From a bacterium D16-76 (GTDB lineage: Bacteria; Bacillota; Clostridia; Oscillospirales; Acutalibacteraceae): a stretch of DNA of 64,000 nucleotides. The stretch is from positions 1 to 64,000 of the forward strand of contig QZEE01000006.1 of the NCBI GenBank assembly GCA_009917445.1, in the 5' to 3' direction. Within the stretch, counting starts at the first letter, position 1. Each line of letters starts with the position of its first letter. A program made the translations under genes and the position numbers. Below are positions 1 to 6,260 of this stretch, piece after piece. Under the pieces are notes generated by a model. The model saw nothing but the letters and a program-made list of their open reading frames with translations, was not told the origin of the DNA and made no database searches.

Positions 1-115
1 GCGGTTCCCTTTTTGAGAATCGCTATTGTTTTCTTCATGCTGTGAGGGTTCATATCTATTTTACGCTTACTGCCATCCACGTTTTCGCACTTTCGAAATC
101 CAGGCTTCCGGGCAT

Positions 116-147
116 CAAAAAACCGCGCCACAGCGCGGTTTTTTGAG
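116..147 (-). terminator. Bidirectional Rho-independent terminator
   Basis: A GC-rich stem (CCGCG/CGCGG) is flanked by A-rich and T-rich runs, so it can end transcription on both strands. On the minus strand it lies just downstream of the tRNA-Arg gene and closes that transcript. Confidence 0.8.
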
Positions 148-173
148 CGAATATCTTTTTTATATCCACAGGA

Positions 174-248
174 TGGCACCCCCTGGGGGAATCGAACCCT
201 CAACCCGCCCTTAGGAGGGGCGTATTATATCCATTTAACTAAGGAGGC
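174..248 (-). tRNA. tRNA-Arg (CCU anticodon)
   Basis: The minus strand reads as a full cloverleaf. The acceptor starts GCCTCCT and pairs (with G-T wobbles) to AGGGGGT before the discriminator and an encoded CCA at the 3' end. The D stem is GTTA/TAAT. The anticodon stem is CGCCC/GGGCG around the loop CTCCTAA, giving anticodon CCU, which reads AGG. The T loop is TTCGATT; its stem has one apparent mismatch. It is the last unit of a transcript that also carries two tRNA-Arg 5' halves upstream, and is followed by a terminator at 116-147. Isotype identity is secure from the anticodon; the exact T-stem pairing is less clean. Confidence 0.93.
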
Positions 249-302
249 ATAATAAAAATTTTCAGTTGTAAATAGGGCTTAAAAGGGATAACATGAAGTT
301 CT

Positions 303-342
303 CTTAGGAGGCGGTCGCTCTATCCAACTGAGCTACGGAAAC
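303..342 (-). pseudogene. Truncated tRNA-Arg(CCU), 5' half only (canonical body)
   Basis: The minus strand gives acceptor strand GTTTCCG, a D arm GCTC...GAGC, and the 5' anticodon stem ACCGC with loop CTCCTAA. It stops immediately after the loop: the sequence continues into AT-rich DNA with no 3' anticodon strand, T arm or acceptor partner. The body differs from the intact tRNA at 174-248 and resembles the common bacterial tRNA-Arg(CCU), so it may be the original chromosomal gene whose 3' half was lost by recombination in the anticodon loop. Confidence 0.8.
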
Positions 343-416
343 ATTTATAAAAACTATGAAATTGTAGAACTCGCAACATTTTCCTTGTCCTCCCAAGGCG
401 AGCGTTGGAACACTTT

Positions 417-455
417 CTTAGGAGGGGCGTGTTATATCCATTTAACTAAGGAGGC
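417..455 (-). pseudogene. Truncated tRNA-Arg(CCU), 5' half only (copy of intact tRNA)
   Basis: The minus strand begins GCCTCCTTAGTTAAATGG and matches the 5' half of the intact tRNA at 174-248 almost base for base. It then stops at the same nucleotide after the anticodon loop (CTCCTAAG) as the other half at 303-342. The 74 bases between the two halves show no convincing T arm. A sigma-A promoter at 502-530 lies directly upstream, so this half should be the first element of the transcript. Confidence 0.8.
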
Positions 456-501
456 ACAATAAAAAACTTCAATTCCACACAAAACAAAACCTGCTTTCCC
501 T

Positions 502-530
502 ATTTTACAACACCCTCGTGGATTTGTCAA
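502..530 (-). promoter_or_regulatory. Sigma-A promoter for the tRNA-Arg transcript
   Basis: Minus strand TTGACA, 17-base spacer, TAAAAT. It points into the two tRNA 5' halves and the intact tRNA, with the terminator at 116-147 closing a transcript of about 380 bases. Confidence 0.7.
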
Positions 531-550
531 GAACCCCCGCTCAAAACACA

Positions 551-582
551 AAAAACAGCAGGGTCATCGGCCCTGCTGTTTT
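551..582 (-). terminator. Rho-independent terminator of the 49-residue membrane peptide
   Basis: AAAACAGCAGGG pairs with CCCTGCTGTTTT around a 7-base loop. On the minus strand it continues into a T-rich tract and lies 18 bases after the stop codon of the small gene at 600-749. Confidence 0.85.
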
Positions 583-599
583 CAGGTTTTGCAGGTTGT

Positions 600-749
600 T
601 CACTGAATCGAGCAGTCCAAATAGTGTTCCAGCTCCTCGTCGTCCCTTTTTTTATCGAGATAAAGAAGGAGGGCGGAGATAGAGGCCACTACCGCGGCAA
701 TGGCTGCCACCACCCCAACGAGTATCGCCAGCTTGCTTCCTTTTTTCAT
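600..749 (-). CDS. Small single-pass membrane peptide, 49 aa
   Basis: The 49-residue product starts MKKGSKLAILVG. It has a short positively charged N-terminus, one hydrophobic helix of about 22 residues (residues 7-30, rich in A and V), then a charged tail KKRDDEELEH ending in LDCSIQ. Topology is probably N-in/C-out or tail-facing cytoplasm; this cannot be settled. The start is supported by GGAGGTG about 9 bases upstream, and a good terminator follows, so it looks like a monocistronic gene. No family was recognised. Plausible roles for such peptides include regulating a membrane complex or acting as a stress peptide, but nothing here indicates which. Confidence 0.7.
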   Translation of the reverse strand: MKKGSKLAILVGVVAAIAAVVASISALLLYLDKKRDDEELEHYLDCSIQ

Positions 750-875
750 ACAACGGCCACCTCCAAAAGTAGTATGCTTTTTGCTCTTCTAATCATACCC
801 AATTTTGCCCCAAAAGTCAACTATTATCCTTGCCGCCCCAAGGCTTTTTTGCCCATCCCTCTCAAAACAGCAAAA

Positions 876-900
876 GCCGGCGCTGAAACCTAGCACCGGC
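876..900 (-). terminator. Terminator of the BlaI-like gene
   Basis: On the minus strand GCCGGTGCT pairs with AGCGCCGGC (one G-T) and is followed by TTTTGCTGTTTTG. It starts a few bases after the stop codon. Confidence 0.75.
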
Positions 901-906
901 CTCCCC

Positions 907-1323
907 TCAATACGCCGTAACAACCTGCCCGGCCTGTTCCTCTATCTTGCTGAGCACCATAGTGGTATCGTCCACCTCGGCATATTCCAGCAGCGAGCAC
1001 ACAATATCCGGGATATCCATAGGCCCCACATTGCCAGACCGGACGATCTGCAGGGCAAAGTGCTGGTTGCGTGTCAGGGTAGGGGCATAGCTACGGGCAT
1101 GCTTGCGGCCCCGGCCTGTGCCGGTAGCCACCCGGATGTACCCCTTTCCCAGCAGCTCGTTCACCAGCAGATGGAAAGAGCTGACGGCAAACAGGGGTTC
1201 CCCTTTCTCGTTCACGGCGGCAGAGATGATCTCAGGCCTGCAGAGAGGGTGGTCGGCTTCCCATAAGATTTCCATCAGCACCAATTCAGAATTTGTCAAC
1301 TGGTATGCTTTTTTTCGTTTCAT
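907..1323 (-). CDS. BlaI/MecI-family winged-helix repressor
   Basis: The 138-residue product has the N-terminal winged helix typical of BlaI/MecI/CopY repressors: LTNSELVLMEILWEADHPL corresponds to the first helix and the recognition region follows at about residues 25-65. The C-terminal part (about 90-135) would form the dimerisation helices. In the family the regulator binds operators as a dimer and is inactivated by proteolysis by a BlaR1/MecR1 sensor or by copper. No BlaR1-type sensor, beta-lactamase or CopA lies nearby, so its target is unknown; autoregulation is likely because the family usually controls its own promoter. It is transcribed alone from the promoter at 1462-1490 with a leader of about 130 bases. 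Confidence 0.8.
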   Translation of the reverse strand: MKRKKAYQLTNSELVLMEILWEADHPLCRPEIISAAVNEKGEPLFAVSSFHLLVNELLGKGYIRVATGTGRGRKHARSYAPTLTRNQHFALQIVRSGNVGPMDIPDIVCSLLEYAEVDDTTMVLSKIEEQAGQVVTAY

Positions 1324-1461
1324 AAAGCGACAACTCCTTTAAATCTGAGAAATGGAAGGCCCCCTGGCCTCCCAATACCCTGCCGCAAAGCAGGGGCAAT
1401 GTGTTTCTCTGCCTGGCCTGCCGGGGCGGGGTACACTCCCCCCCGGGTCAGTCTTTCATAT

Positions 1462-1490
1462 ATTTTATAATATATTTTCGAAGTTGTCAA
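1462..1490 (-). promoter_or_regulatory. Promoter of the BlaI-like repressor gene
   Basis: Minus strand TTGACA, 17 bases, TAAAAT. The AT-rich spacer (AATATATTATAAAATATATG region) is partly palindromic and could hold a repressor operator; that is inference. Confidence 0.65.
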
Positions 1491-1561
1491 TGCGATTTTC
1501 TAAAAAACAGCAGAAAAATTCTCAGTAAGAACAATTTATAAATACAGAAATTCTATGTTTT

Positions 1562-2617
1562 TTACTTAATGTTTTCCCCCAATTCCTCCCGCAGCCGCTT
1601 CCGGCGGTAGAAAAACTGGTCGGCCACCACCAGCAGGGCCCCGGCAATCACCACCAGGTAATAGGTGAAAAACCGCCACACCATCACCGCGGCGTACAAA
1701 TCGTTGTGGACGAAATACCCCCGGAAGAAAGAGGAAAACCCCAGCTCCTGGGCACCCGAGGCCCCCGGCATGGGCATAAAGGACACCGAGACTTGCAGGA
1801 GGCTCTGCACCGCCACCACCTCCCAATAGCCGATCCCCCCATAGCCAAAAGCCCTGAAAATGAAGAAGATCACGCTCATCTGCAAAAAGAACTGGGGGAT
1901 AGACAGCAGGATCCCCCACAGCACACTGCCCTTTTTCTCCTTAAAGTTGTCGGTAAAGCTGCCAAAGTCCGCCTCAAACTTGTCAATGACATCCACCATC
2001 CGGAACCGCTCCCGCAAAAACCGGAACCGACCGGCCAGCCATTTGGCAAAGCGGCAAATCACATGGAACACCGGCTTGATAAACAGCGAGGCGAAAAACA
2101 GAATAGACCCCCCGTTAATGATGAGCCCTACCACGATCAGCGGCAAAATGCCCGGGTTTTCGGCCCGCAGCTTCCCCAGCATCATCATGTAGAACACCGC
2201 CGAGCACAGCACAAAGGCGCACTGGTAGCAGAAAAACTTCATCAGCAGCACCGCCGTAGAAAGGCCTACCGGTATGTTGTCCCGCCGCAGGTAAGCCGCC
2301 TGCATAGGCTGTCCGCCCGTAGAGCTGGGGGTGATGTACGAATAGTAAATGCCAATAAGCCCAATCTTCAAGCTGTTCCCCCAGGTTATAGGGATGTGCT
2401 GGCTGCGCATCAAAAGCCGGATAATGCCGCCCTCAAACCCAAAAAAGACCACGGTGATCCCCACCGCTAACGCCAGCCATCCCGGGGCAAGCCCGGCCAT
2501 AGTGGCAAACACATGGCCAAACTGCTGGTTAAACACACCAAACAGCACCACCGCCACAATGGTAGCGGCAATGTACAGCAGGCCCCACGGTATCTTCCTC
2601 TTCTTTTTTTCCAACAT
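1562..2617 (-). CDS. Flippase-like integral membrane protein (LPG_synthase_TM / UPF0104 family)
   Basis: The 351-residue product starts MLEKKKRKIPWGLLY, with a basic N-terminus and about eight hydrophobic segments. It matches the lysylphosphatidylglycerol synthase transmembrane region family (YbhN/AglD-like): the motif SSTGGQPMQA near the second third and PMPGASGAQE near the C-terminus are characteristic. Members form the flippase half of MprF or act as stand-alone lipid or polyprenol-sugar transporters; no cytoplasmic aminoacyltransferase domain is present here. A longer reading frame exists upstream, but the ATG at 2617 has a GAGGAA ribosome site about 8 bases before it and the extra 66 residues cross a terminator hairpin. 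Substrate unknown. Confidence 0.85.
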   Translation of the reverse strand: MLEKKKRKIPWGLLYIAATIVAVVLFGVFNQQFGHVFATMAGLAPGWLALAVGITVVFFGFEGGIIRLLMRSQHIPITWGNSLKIGLIGIYYSYITPSSTGGQPMQAAYLRRDNIPVGLSTAVLLMKFFCYQCAFVLCSAVFYMMMLGKLRAENPGILPLIVVGLIINGGSILFFASLFIKPVFHVICRFAKWLAGRFRFLRERFRMVDVIDKFEADFGSFTDNFKEKKGSVLWGILLSIPQFFLQMSVIFFIFRAFGYGGIGYWEVVAVQSLLQVSVSFMPMPGASGAQELGFSSFFRGYFVHNDLYAAVMVWRFFTYYLVVIAGALLVVADQFFYRRKRLREELGENIK

Positions 2618-2748
2618 AGCCACGTTCCTCTTCCCATGAAATTTCTTACAGGGGAAATTATAGCATACCCCAACCCTGGTGTAAACCCGCCGCCCCCCGT
2701 CCAGCCCCATCCCTAAGAAAAACGTAAGAAAGCCCCCCAAAAAACCGC

Positions 2749-2886
2749 AAAAAGTGTGGGGGACTGGGCCACTGGCCCAGTCCCCCATACTCACTCTAAA
2801 TTTACAATTACCCAATTGTTGTCCGCGTGTGGTGGAAACCCCTGGCAGAAAAGCCGAAAAGCTTTCCGGCCCCGGACTTCTTTTGT
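2749..2886 (-). ncRNA. Candidate structured small RNA of unknown family
   Basis: A complete transcription unit without a reading frame lies between ilvE and the flippase gene. A strong promoter (2893-2922) is followed by about 140 bases that can fold into a closing stem GTCCG/CGGAC, an internal hairpin GCCGGAAA/TTTTCGGC, a small hairpin CAATT-GGGT-AATTG and a very strong terminator at 2757-2787 followed by TTTTT. It does not match the conserved cores of 4.5S, 6S, tmRNA, RNase P or common riboswitches that I know. It could also be an attenuated leader of the flippase gene at 1562-2617, whose ATG lies about 130 bases further downstream. Confidence 0.5.
2757..2787 (-). terminator. Strong terminator hairpin ending the 2.8-kb small RNA
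   Basis: TGGGGGACTGGGCCA and TGGCCCAGTCCCCCA are perfect complements separated by one base. On the minus strand the stem is followed by CAC and TTTTT. It sits upstream of the flippase gene, so readthrough would be needed for that promoter to serve the gene. Confidence 0.75.
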
Positions 2887-2892
2887 GAAAAG

Positions 2893-2922
2893 ATTATACC
2901 ACTTTTTTGTACGATTTGTCAA
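2893..2922 (-). promoter_or_regulatory. Strong sigma-A promoter of the 2.8-kb small RNA
   Basis: Minus strand consensus TTGACA, 18-base spacer, extended TGGTATAAT. Both hexamers are perfect, which is unusual in this window and implies high expression. Confidence 0.8.
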
Positions 2923-2961
2923 GGCTTTGCCGCCGGAAATCTATGGATAGTAGGGAACCCC

Positions 2962-4032
2962 TTATTCCACCTCAACAACCCAGCCAAAGGTGTCTTCCAC
3001 CTTGCCGGTCTGTATGCCGGTGACTGTGTCGTACAGCTTCTGGCTTACCGGGCCAATGCCCCCGCCAGAAATCTCCATGACCTCGTCGCCAAAGCGCAGG
3101 GCCCCTACCGGCGAGATCACCGCCGCCGTGCCGCTGCCCCAGCACTCTTCCAAAGAGCCGTCTTTGGCGGCGGCCACCAGCTCGTCTACCGACACCCGGC
3201 GCTCTTCCACCTCCATGCCCCAGTGCCTGCACAGGTCAAGGCACGACGCCCGGGTAACGCCAGGCAATATGCTGCCGTTAAGCACCGGCGTGACCACCTT
3301 GCCCTTTATCTTGAAGAAGATGTTCATAGCCCCCACCTCTTCAATGTACTTGCGCTCCACGCCGTCCAGCCACAGCACCTGGGAGTATCCCTCGTCGTGG
3401 GCCTTCATCTGGGCCTTCAGGCTGGCCACGTAGTTGCCGCCGGTCTTGGCCTCGCCAATGCCGCCCCGCACGGCCCGCACGTAGTCATCCTCAATCCAGA
3501 TTTTCACCGGGTCCAGCCCGCTTTCATAGTACGCGCCAGAGGGCGACAAAATAATCATAAACAAATACGTATCCGAAGGCCGCACCCCCAGGAAGGGGTC
3601 GGTAGCAATAATAAACGGCCGGATATACAGGGAAGTCCCCGGCGCCGTGGGTATCCAATCCTTCTCGATGCCCACCAGGGTCTTCAAGCCGTTCATAAAG
3701 TCGTCCACCGGCACCTCGGGTATGCAGATGCGCCGGTTAGAGTTGTTGGCCCTGGCAATGTTCCGGTCCGGCCGGAACAGCAGGGTGCGCCCGTCCTCCG
3801 TGCGGTAAGCCTTCATGCCCTCAAACATCTCCTGGCCATAGTGGAACACCATGGCCGAGGGGTCCAGCTCAATACTGTGGTAAGGCTCAATGCGGGGGTC
3901 GTGCCAGCCCCTTTCCTTGTCATAGGGCATAATGTACATATGGTCGGTAAAAATCTTGCCAAAGCCCAGCTTCGATTGATTCGTAGGCTTTGCCTTAGGG
4001 CTTTCCGTCAACGTGATTTTAATTTCCTGCAT
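2962..4032 (-). CDS. ilvE: Branched-chain amino acid aminotransferase (BCAT type II)
   Basis: The 356-residue PLP fold-type IV enzyme transfers amino groups between glutamate and the 2-oxo acids of leucine, isoleucine and valine, the last step of their synthesis or first step of their breakdown. Recognisable blocks are FHYGQEMFEGMKAYR (about 63-77), the PLP lysine K196 in GEAKTGGNY, QVLWLDG, and the phosphate-binding GSGTAAVISPVG near the C-terminus. Length and blocks match the eukaryote-like BCAT subgroup. The ribosome site before the ATG is weak. It lies 106 bases after the SprA-like gene on the same strand and no dedicated promoter was seen, so the two may be co-transcribed. Confidence 0.95.
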   Translation of the reverse strand: MQEIKITLTESPKAKPTNQSKLGFGKIFTDHMYIMPYDKERGWHDPRIEPYHSIELDPSAMVFHYGQEMFEGMKAYRTEDGRTLLFRPDRNIARANNSNRRICIPEVPVDDFMNGLKTLVGIEKDWIPTAPGTSLYIRPFIIATDPFLGVRPSDTYLFMIILSPSGAYYESGLDPVKIWIEDDYVRAVRGGIGEAKTGGNYVASLKAQMKAHDEGYSQVLWLDGVERKYIEEVGAMNIFFKIKGKVVTPVLNGSILPGVTRASCLDLCRHWGMEVEERRVSVDELVAAAKDGSLEECWGSGTAAVISPVGALRFGDEVMEISGGGIGPVSQKLYDTVTGIQTGKVEDTFGWVVEVE

Positions 4033-4138
4033 GTGAATACACCGCTTTCTTGTACCCGCCAGGCCGCCAGCCTGTACCGGGCTGATTTTTTACCGCCCCG
4101 CCGCCCCGTCCAAACACCGGCGGCAGGGGCCTGGGGCG

Positions 4139-4960
4139 TTACGCCGCCTGCTCCGGCTCTTCCTCCTGGGGCTGCTGGGCCGGCTCCTGGGGGTTGGCCT
4201 TAGTGACGGTACGGGTGGTGCCGCCAGAAATATAAGACTTGCCGCACTCCGGGCAGATGTCGGTATGCAGGGTCACGCTCTGGCTGACGACCTTGCGGTC
4301 TTCCCGCTGGGCCCTGGCCTGCTCGTGGGCCACGTGCTCCATCTCATGGCCCCGCACAGCAGAAGCCGCCATGTCCGGGTCAATGCGGGTAGGGCTCTGG
4401 TACGACACACTAACGTCGTCCGAGCCATCCTGGTACTTGCGCTGTTCGCAGGTCTCGCACTTGCCCTCTTCCAAAGCCTCCTGGGCGGCTACCGCGCCGG
4501 TTTCCTGATTTTCCAAAGCCTGGGCGCCTTCCGCCCCCTGGCCGGGGTACTGTATGCGCATGCGCACCAGGGTCTCGGCAGCGTCAGCCCCCGGCCAGCT
4601 GGGCAGCTGGGGCCCGGCAGTTTCTGGGGCCTGGGCGGCCCCTTGCTGGGCGGCAGGCTGGCCCTGGGGGTATTCTACCCGTGCGCGGTTGGCCAGCTCA
4701 GCCCCATAGCTTTGGGGCAGGACGGGCATAGCATAAGACGAAAACTCACTGGGCAAACGGCTGCTGTAGACCGTAGGCTGGGCCTCCCCAGCCGTAGGGG
4801 TGGGTACGGCTTTAACCGGCTGCACAGGGGCCTCTGGCGCGGCCCGGCCGCTGCGCATGACCCCCGTGCCGGCCCCCGCGCCATATGCGCGGGAAACCCC
4901 GGAAACACCATAAAAATTCACGCCGAAGAGGCCGCCAACACCTGCAATGCCTCCGACCAT
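4139..4960 (-). CDS. SprA-related putative zinc metallopeptidase
   Basis: The 273-residue product has a low-complexity, A/P/Q-rich N-terminal two thirds and a conserved C-terminal domain: CETCEQRKYQDGSDD (CxxC at 168-171), then the HExxH-like zinc motif HEMEH at 205-209, then CPECGKSYISGGTT. This combination is typical of the SprA-related family, predicted metalloproteases of unknown substrate, often near the cell surface or in spores. No clear signal peptide; the glycine-rich start MVGGIAGVGGLFG is mildly hydrophobic. I chose the ATG at 4960 because GGGAGG lies 9 bases upstream; a second in-frame ATG three codons earlier directly abuts that site. The tail (QEPAQQPQEEEPEQAA) is acidic and disordered. 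Confidence 0.8.
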   Translation of the reverse strand: MVGGIAGVGGLFGVNFYGVSGVSRAYGAGAGTGVMRSGRAAPEAPVQPVKAVPTPTAGEAQPTVYSSRLPSEFSSYAMPVLPQSYGAELANRARVEYPQGQPAAQQGAAQAPETAGPQLPSWPGADAAETLVRMRIQYPGQGAEGAQALENQETGAVAAQEALEEGKCETCEQRKYQDGSDDVSVSYQSPTRIDPDMAASAVRGHEMEHVAHEQARAQREDRKVVSQSVTLHTDICPECGKSYISGGTTRTVTKANPQEPAQQPQEEEPEQAA

Positions 4961-5144
4961 AAATATCATCCTCCCGCGCCTGGGCCGCAGAGAAGCCCAG
5001 GCAAATTTGCTTTCATAATATTATAGCATATTTTGTGAAAAAGGCAAGGGGGAAACCGGGAAAATGGGCCTTAAGCCATCCCCAAACGCAGGTAGGGGAG
5101 ATTAGCAAAATGCAGGATAGCCTGGCTCAACTTGCAAAACCGCT

Positions 5145-5221
5145 GGTTACAAATTCGTTACAAACGGTCTTTTTTGGCAGCTTTTTGTAAGAAAAGGCCG
5201 TTTTGTAAACGATCCGTAACC
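5145..5221. repeat. Large imperfect inverted repeat with GTTACAAA units
   Basis: The arms at 5145-5169 and 5195-5221 are imperfect inverted complements built around GTTAC/GTAAC units, with an inner AAACGGTCTTTT/GAAAAGGCCGTTT pairing. Further GTAAC and GTTAC units follow at 5225-5240. It lies in the divergent 457-base gap between the SprA-like gene and the first esterase, which otherwise holds only the esterase promoter. It may be a regulator binding region or a cruciform. Confidence 0.5.
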
Positions 5222-5336
5222 CTTGTAACCTTTTTGTTACACTCGGGGATTCAAAAACCAGCACCCCCGCCAAGCCCAGGCAGGCGGCTCACAGCCCAAA
5301 CCTCTCTTCAAAGACGGGCGCGCACCCAGGTTATGC

Positions 5337-5365
5337 TTGCGCTGGGGGCGGTAGGGGGGTATAAT
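5337..5365 (+). promoter_or_regulatory. Promoter of esterase 1
   Basis: TTGCGC, 17-base spacer, TATAAT, about 50 bases before the esterase start. Confidence 0.65.
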
Positions 5366-5417
5366 AGTAGATAAGCCGGGGCGCCCGGCCAATCTTATGC
5401 ATGGAGGATGTATGTTT

Positions 5418-6260
5418 ATGGCTTTGTTGCAATGCAATTTTTTCTCAAGCTGCCTTAACCGCACGGTGCCCATCCAGGTGGTGCTGCCTACGGACAAGCG
5501 GGTATTCGGGCCCGGCGGCGCGCCGGCCCTGCAGGCCGAGAAGCCCTTTAAGACGCTGTATCTGCTGCACGGTCTTTTTGGCAACTACACCGACTGGGTC
5601 AGCGGCACCCGGGTGCAGGCCTGGGCCCAGGACCACGACCTGGCCGTCGTGTGCCCCAGCGGCGACAACAGCTTTTACGTGGATAACGTGAAAGCCGGCA
5701 ACCTGTACAGCACCTTCATCGGCCAAGAGCTGGTGGAGTTTACCCGCCGCACTTTCCCCCTTTCCCGCCAGCGGGAGGACACCTTTATCGGCGGGCTTTC
5801 CATGGGCGGCTATGGGGCCACCATCAACGGGCTGCGGTTTACGGATACCTTTAGCCACGTGGTAGCGTTGTCTTCGGCCTATGTGCTGGAAAGCAATTTC
5901 CTCAGCGCCGCCGAGTACACCGACAACATCTTTACCAACAAGGGCTACGGCGAGTCTATTTTCAACGACCTGTCCACCGTAAAAGGCGGCCCCTGGGACT
6001 ATAACGCCCTGGCGGAGAAAACCGCCCAGGTCCCCCATAAGCCCAAGTTCTACATGGCCTGCGGGACAGAGGACGGCTTGATCGGCTCTAACCGGGAGTA
6101 CCGGGACCTGCTGCTTTCCCTGGGTTATGAGGTCGCCTGGCACGAGGGGCCCGGCGGGCACGACTGGGTGTTCTGGGACAAGCACATAGGGGAGTGCATG
6201 GATTGGCTGCCCCTGGGCGGGCCCGTAGAAGGGCTGGGCTCGGGGCATATTGGGGAGTAA
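5418..6260 (+). CDS. Alpha/beta-hydrolase esterase, tributyrin esterase/esterase D-like (paralogue 1)
   Basis: The 280-residue cytoplasmic alpha/beta hydrolase belongs to the putative esterase family (PF00756). Seen: oxyanion region LYLLHGLFGNYTDW, nucleophile S128 in GLSMGGYG, and the terminal histidine in GPGGHDWVFWDKHI. Family members cleave short-chain acyl esters or S-formylglutathione; bacterial tributyrin esterases are the nearest type. No signal peptide, so the substrate is intracellular. Three ATGs compete for the start: GGAGG at 5403-5407 is 4 bases from 5412 and 10 from 5418. I chose 5418 because it aligns with the MAL start of the second esterase, which follows 76 bases later in the same direction and has its nucleophile at the same residue number, a tandem duplication. 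Confidence 0.85.
   Translation: MALLQCNFFSSCLNRTVPIQVVLPTDKRVFGPGGAPALQAEKPFKTLYLLHGLFGNYTDWVSGTRVQAWAQDHDLAVVCPSGDNSFYVDNVKAGNLYSTFIGQELVEFTRRTFPLSRQREDTFIGGLSMGGYGATINGLRFTDTFSHVVALSSAYVLESNFLSAAEYTDNIFTNKGYGESIFNDLSTVKGGPWDYNALAEKTAQVPHKPKFYMACGTEDGLIGSNREYRDLLLSLGYEVAWHEGPGGHDWVFWDKHIGECMDWLPLGGPVEGLGSGHIGE

Follow-up and report, generated by a model that had tools for sequence, protein, structure and literature searches.

Two displaced 5' halves of tRNA-Arg(CCU), broken at the same base, precede an intact gene of the same kind in the analysed window (the whole stretch of DNA, 64 kb long), and comparable arrays recur in gut Clostridia. Such an array is, with high probability, the attL-side fossil stack of serial, nested site-specific integration, in which the 5' halves would have stacked because every incoming element supplied a whole replacement tRNA, in most cases from another lineage. 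The elements concerned are integrative and, as judged by their genes, in one case clearly conjugative.

On the minus strand of the window, a promoter is followed by a 5' half, a spacer, a second 5' half, a second spacer, the intact tRNA-Arg(CCU) and a trailer with a hairpin. The promoter-like site, TTGACA-17-TAAAAT at 530-502, precedes all three units, as the preliminary description had stated. The first displaced half (455-417) is of the A type, which is that of the solo gene in relatives, and differs from the 5' half of the intact gene by one base (position 25). It is followed by the 74-base spacer Y1 (416-343) and by a displaced half of B type (342-303; GTTTCCG..ACCGC), which has a canonical D-arm, TAGCTCAGTTGGATAGAGC, and an acceptor strand, GTTTCCG, unlike that of the intact gene. 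Next come the 54-base spacer Y2 (302-249), with a GAGAAC-type start, the intact A-type gene (248-174) and a host-type 3' trailer (173-74) with a terminator-like hairpin at about 117-146. The two spacers are unlike each other, as are the two halves, and both halves end on the same base, at CTCCTAAG. ARAGORN calls a single tRNA in the window, tRNA-Arg(CCT) at 174-248 on the minus strand, and an Rfam search of positions 1-6000 gives a tRNA match of 51.6 bits at the same place; neither 5' half is called as a tRNA by ARAGORN in the window or by Rfam in 1-6000. No other RNA family was found in 1-6000, where tRNA alone exceeds its Rfam gathering score. Exactly three copies of the signature GGATA-N10-CTCCTAAG are present in the 64 kb (232-210, 325-303 and 439-417, all on the minus strand), with none expected from 100 shuffles. 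The three tRNA-Arg(CCU) units of the preliminary description, two of them cut at one base, are thereby confirmed at the coordinates it gave.

A conserved 3' half in the gaps, which that description had regarded as speaking against its reading, was looked for by eye and is absent from both (74 and 54 bases); a 3'-half pattern search of the window's genome (G000) matched the intact gene only. When 455-417 is joined to 209-174, ARAGORN calls tRNA-Arg(CCT), the extra stretch inside being 207 bases long. The intact gene itself is identical (75/75) to the solo gene of a relative, G014.

Of 394 genomes of the order, 38 contain a strict array pattern, spread over 33 of 168 genera, and none contains the reversed pattern. 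A scan of the GTDB collection matched the array pattern in at least 119 stretches; among the 80 matches listed, titles are mostly Clostridia or unspecified uncultured bacteria, with two Erysipelotrichaceae and two outside Bacillota. The last two are one Aestuariibacter and one Flavobacteriaceae record. All fetched loci except these two make up 151 sequence-distinct arrays, of which 108, 32, 7, 2 and 2 have two, three, four, five and six units, respectively, counts that give no frequency because loci were fetched mostly as matches. The arrays vary in unit number, order and spacer. A search of 60 relatives with window positions 560-160 recovered the stretch 424-303, comprising the core, spacer Y1 and the B-type half, at 93-100% identity in G010, G020, G004 and (twice) G026, with a further copy of 87% in G020; many more spaced halves also matched. 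This 122-bp unit is common to species with different neighbours, and intact B-type genes with a matching 3' half (CGGGAAC/GCGGT) are present in the same four genomes. Among 398 genomes of the family, spacer Y2 is found at full length in G000 only, and ten others match 18-31 bases of it. A solo A-type gene is present in many relatives, within the 3 kb fetched.

The clearest comparison of a locus with and without halves is that of G014, with a solo gene, and G004, with an array. Collinearity of their left flanks extends over 5.2 kb, with 94.7% identity in the best block of 4,026 bp, and their right flanks rejoin (205 bp, 85%) about 0.74 kb past the G014 tRNA and about 1.47 kb past the last G004 unit. 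G004 thus looks like an array with a short element remnant left. With the 3'-half pattern, the G004 genome yields no 3' half beyond that of its intact gene. For the window itself, no such pair was found among the relatives compared.

Integration within the anticodon loop is expected to displace the 3' half of the resident gene as well. We observed orphan 3' halves, consisting of CTCCTAA and a T-arm without a 5' half, in which the sequence up to CTCCTAA is not tRNA. Their fit to the displaced 5' halves was scored as the best match of the acceptor (7) and anticodon (5) stems, wobble allowed, with a maximum of 12, in the 22 genomes that have at least one displaced 5' half and at least one orphan 3' half. 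The best pairing reaches 12/12 in 19 of the 22 genomes, 11 in G307, 10 in G092 and 8 in G262. At least 11 of 12 is thus reached in 20 genomes, compared with a mean of 7.06 and a maximum of 14 when orphan sets were shuffled 20,000 times among genomes, and 12/12 is also attained in 41 of 462 cross-genome pairings. The matches of G032 and G323 say little, because each of these genomes has an intact gene whose pairing with the orphan is just as good (12/12); the orphans of G262 (8/12) and G092 (10/12) are mismatched to their own arrays.

Array and orphan are on one contig in nine genomes, and there the orphan always lies downstream on the same strand, 2-133 kb away: 2 kb in G297, 6 kb in G044, 16 kb in G006, 33 kb in G377, 35 kb in G360, 36 kb in G264, 53 kb in G262, 122 kb in G035, and 70 and 133 kb in G146. 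Halves match in eight of the nine, the exception being G262. Since array and orphan are on different contigs in 13 of the 22 genomes, linkage is established for the one-contig genomes only. In G146, which has two orphans, the nearer (CGGGGGT/GGGTT) pairs with the second half (GCCTCCG/AGCCC), and the first half (GTCTCTG/ACCGC) is matched by the farther orphan (CAGGGAC/GCGGT). The orphans are therefore in the reverse order of the 5' halves, as nesting predicts.

These observations bear directly on the possibility that the halves are truncated copies made by tandem duplication, through slippage or unequal homologous recombination and without an integrase. Neighbouring units with near-identical or identical spacers do occur in G262 and G044 (93 and 81 bp apart), and these may be plain tandem duplications. 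However, in the window both spacers and halves differ, the units all break at one base, the 122-bp unit is common to species with different neighbours, and matching 3' halves lie kilobases off, behind element genes where these were read. As a general cause, tandem duplication is contradicted by the orphan 3' halves and was rejected; we regard it as extremely improbable. In G262, four consecutive units with near-identical spacers were seen at G262:C19:439229-439645, and the only orphan found, 53 kb off, is mismatched.

Displaced 5' halves outnumber the detected 3' halves in G006, G044, G053, G360 and G377, and this surplus in several arrays means that later loss must be assumed. G377 has an extra, slightly altered upstream half for which a 3' partner was not found. 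Conversely, G009, G049, G042 and G050 have orphan 3' halves, but no displaced 5' half was detected in them; the orphans of G009 and G049 may belong to classical 3'-restoring elements at the same core. Orphans of this kind sit at L053 6220, L058 6077, L062 667 and L067 4653. At the right ends L042 4437, L058 6077, L060 189 and L067 4653, an open frame seems, by eye, to enter the core, TCC TAA reading as Ser-stop.

An integrase-like ORF begins or ends 199-276 bp past the last core in G044, G035, G036 and G053; in G006 and G360 such an ORF is located at the far right end. Pfam confirms the integrases of G377, G006, G360 and G044 (PF00589), and all eight integrases compared are homologous, at 37-99.6%. 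In G377, the stretch between the junctions encodes an integrase (PF00589), a relaxase (PF03432), a coupling protein (PF02534) and a TraG P-loop ATPase (PF19044), together with TrbL_2, NlpC/P60 and a CD1107-like protein. With integrase, relaxase, coupling protein and type IV secretion system (T4SS) genes, this element is an integrative and conjugative element (ICE), conjugative by its genes. It resembles the Tn1549/CTn-type ICEs of Bacillota, with which it has in common a relaxase, coupling protein, TraG P-loop ATPase, TrbL/VirB6-like protein, NlpC/P60 and CD1107-like protein. The likeness is one of gene content alone; unlike those ICEs, the element here targets the anticodon loop of tRNA-Arg(CCU) and brings a replacement tRNA. 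The G006 element carries ParA, ParB and a PemK-like protein, and none of the five G006 proteins scanned is a phage structural protein. By eye, the 2-kb stretch in G297 has no integrase-like ORF of at least 90 aa and is probably a remnant. Comparing the locus among relatives, as the preliminary description had suggested, thus turned up elements with integrases and also their matched orphan 3' halves.

The position of the elements also bears on whether the array is maintained for a function, the 5' halves serving either as RNAs or as decoys that draw integration away from the intact gene. In favour of this, the D-stem is fully paired in 167 of 175 displaced halves, a proportion similar to that in intact genes (87 of 89), and the units of the window all lie behind one promoter. 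That free 5' halves may be made as RNA, as the preliminary description suggested, is a conjecture, of which the shared promoter is the plausible part. Paired stems fit either a recent origin or some use, and may reflect recent origin only. Array number, order and spacer are variable, and in eight genomes (G044, G035, G036, G053, G006, G377, G264 and G360) the element comes after the final, intact unit instead of lying between halves, which speaks against decoys. We therefore regard a maintained functional array as very unlikely.

The anatomy of the arrays, the matched halves, the nesting order in G146, the ICE gene set of G377, the homologous integrases and the position of the promoter were read directly, and a mechanism of serial, nested integration can be proposed around them. 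The tyrosine integrase of the element would recombine attP with a core of 7-8 bp, CTCCTAA(G), that the resident tRNA-Arg(CCU) carries in its anticodon loop; the integrases described above are the presumed recombinases. With so short a core the resident gene would not be rebuilt: its 5' half would stay on the left, and its 3' half would be moved to the far right end of the element. A complete tRNA-Arg(CCU), placed just inside the left end of the element, usually 50-90 bp past the core, and lacking a recognisable promoter, would then be expressed from the host tRNA promoter. This gene would be the remaining intact anticodon-loop target, which the next element would enter, so that 5' halves would accumulate on the left and 3' halves on the right in reverse order. 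The replacement would presumably be needed by the host, and silent outside the site; tRNA-Arg(CCU) may itself be dispensable, since tRNA-Arg(UCU) can read AGG. The preliminary description had proposed repeated integration and excision at the anticodon loop. Its integration step and the CTCCTAAG core are strongly supported by the integrase elements, the matched orphans and the G004/G014 pair; the replacement tRNA was missing from it.

Several observations point to replacement of the resident gene. At neither junction is the tRNA rebuilt: the left junction consists of a 5' half and spacer, and the right one of non-tRNA sequence, CTCCTAA and a 3' half. The acceptor and anticodon stems of intact gene and displaced half mostly differ, a difference that would not arise if an attP fragment had rebuilt the resident gene. 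Moreover, the last 5' half pairs with the adjoining 3' half, so the element must bring a complete tRNA; from its position immediately within the left end, this replacement takes over as the working gene and also offers the target for the next element. Classical islands, in which an attP fragment restores the 5' side of the tRNA and internal deletions later shrink each element to its ends, would account for the window alone, which is also readable as two such collapsed elements; islands with 5' fragments are known as a minority, 159 of 3919 in the Islander collection (PMC4383910). Against this, deletion would have had to occur repeatedly and exactly between the same two ends, and the pairing of the last 5' half with its adjoining 3' half, and of earlier ones with distant 3' halves, indicates that both halves of a new gene arrive together. 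Collapsed classical islands are thus very improbable, and replacement by a complete incoming gene is the reading followed here.

Of 151 first halves, 70 are preceded by a sigma-70-like promoter with at most one mismatch (0.35 expected from shuffles), whereas 0 of 173 inner spacers contain one (0.05 expected). From these consensus matches, it is most likely the host promoter that drives the replacement gene. The types of half are distributed unevenly as well. The A type, the common solo type in the loci read, makes up 40 of 116 first displaced halves and 8 of 58 later ones (Fisher P=0.004), and it is rarer among array-end intact genes (7 of 70) than among first displaced halves (P=0.0002). Enrichment among the first displaced halves is expected if A is mainly the resident type; an array-end gene of A type also occurs, in G036 and G058. 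A wider reading, in which the spare tRNA is silent on the circle and is switched on by landing behind the host promoter, integration is licensed by promoter capture, the locus is an ordered invasion recorder and a core tRNA gene of gut Clostridia has been repeatedly replaced, is conceivable, though we stop just short of calling it probable.

The closest known system is the tRNA-dependent lysogeny of temperate phages (Guerrero-Bustamante & Hatfull 2024, PMC10865867). Both systems have a tyrosine integrase and an attB in a tRNA gene, there often at the anticodon loop; the common core is 8-17 bp there and 7-8 bp here; and in both the target tRNA is not rebuilt. A complete cognate tRNA on the element, a feature of tRNA-dependent lysogeny, is found here too. 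The element with the clearest gene set here is, by its genes, an ICE, whereas those of the paper are temperate phages. Unlike in those phages as described there, the replacement tRNA here lies at the attL edge, seemingly promoterless, behind the host promoter. It also becomes the next target, giving nested insertions and stacked halves, and stacking is not reported in the parts of the paper considered. What is new here is conjugative, serial, stacked tRNA-dependent integration. As one of several routes to such a system, the paper proposes that the tRNA is gained first and that the restoring fragment then decays. A decayed 3' half beside a complete new tRNA, which that route predicts, is seen in one spacer class here (CTCCTAAGCGGCAG..GTTCGANTCC). 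This class starts with CGGCAG and retains GTTCGANTCC, that is, a 3' half that has lost a part before the T-loop, and is present in G262, G377, G264, G220, G012, G002 and others. It suggests that elements of this class once restored the gene as usual, and that the fragment decayed after a complete tRNA was gained.

Islander islands (PMC4383910) likewise have an intact tRNA, a displaced tRNA fragment and an integrase between them, and anticodon-centred crossovers are common among them (2083 of 3919). They restore the gene through an attP fragment, whereas here another complete gene replaces it; the Islander table includes four tandems of three or more. Fragments of tRNA genes are discussed in PMC9897764. 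No description of stacked tRNA halves or of element-borne replacement tRNAs in Clostridia was found in the open-access literature searched, subscription papers being mostly outside the scope of the search. The arrays would extend tRNA-dependent integration from actinobacteriophages to conjugative elements of a large gut-bacterial group. They would also provide an ordered, countable record of past invasions, with horizontal replacement of a core tRNA gene to be seen at the locus. The locus is in addition a source of tRNA fragments, which annotation tools may miscount.

Applied to the window, the mechanism would assign spacer Y1 to the attP left arm of a first element and the B-type half to the replacement tRNA of that element. 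Spacer Y2 would be the attP left arm of a second element, which would also have supplied the 5' half of the intact gene, the 3' half (209-174) being native. Recombination of the last core with the outermost right end would later have removed both elements, with the 207 extra bases remaining. In G000, neither the T-arm pattern nor a B-type 3' half with three mismatches allowed revealed an orphan 3' half. From this and the host-type trailer, the window is probably a scar from which both elements are gone; the contig ends in a repeat at base 1, so their absence is deduced and not read directly. The preliminary description had counted halves without any element against integration. Such halves do exist, in the window and in G004, but they are not decisive, as the elements have seemingly been lost and the halves kept.

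A stretch of 222 bp in the left flank of the window is common with G027 (77%), on the same side and in the same orientation; it is inverted in G006, G012, G019 and G002 and on the other side in G015. Orthology of this flank to the solo and array loci was dropped, since the common stretch is short, inverted four times and once on the other side. The stretch (602-821, with copies of 160-226 bp) overlaps a 49-aa ORF adjoining the array (600..749, minus strand) and recurs near tRNA-Arg(CCU) in six relatives, of which only G027 has it on the same side and in the same orientation; because side and orientation vary, it may itself be mobile or rearranged.

On the other side, the trailer is 93% identical to that of the G027 solo gene and 85% to that of G014, and the contig ends 173 bp past the tRNA, at window base 1, in a repeat. 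Trailer sequence lies directly 3' of a tRNA gene in 8 of 11 loci scanned, including Leu, Pro, Arg(ACG) and Tyr. That the downstream repeat is the end of another integrative element was rejected, as it trails tRNA genes of several kinds in the genus. A protein search of G000 with the gene that follows the G027 solo tRNA gave no contig-end match bridging the window contig and was uninformative. The first ~70 bases of the window contig have mismatch-free copies at the start of contig C111 and in C72 of the same genome. In contig C61, near 1.6 kb, a tRNA 3' end that ARAGORN does not call, GGTTCGAATCCCACCGTCTCCGCCA, precedes the same trailer and may be a 3' fragment displaced from a different tRNA; by eye, IS66-like sequence follows the trailer repeat there. 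In another genome, near 34.5 kb of G010:C10, CTCCTAAG directly links the right end of an element to the spacer of a left end and a B-type tRNA, forming a tandem element junction.
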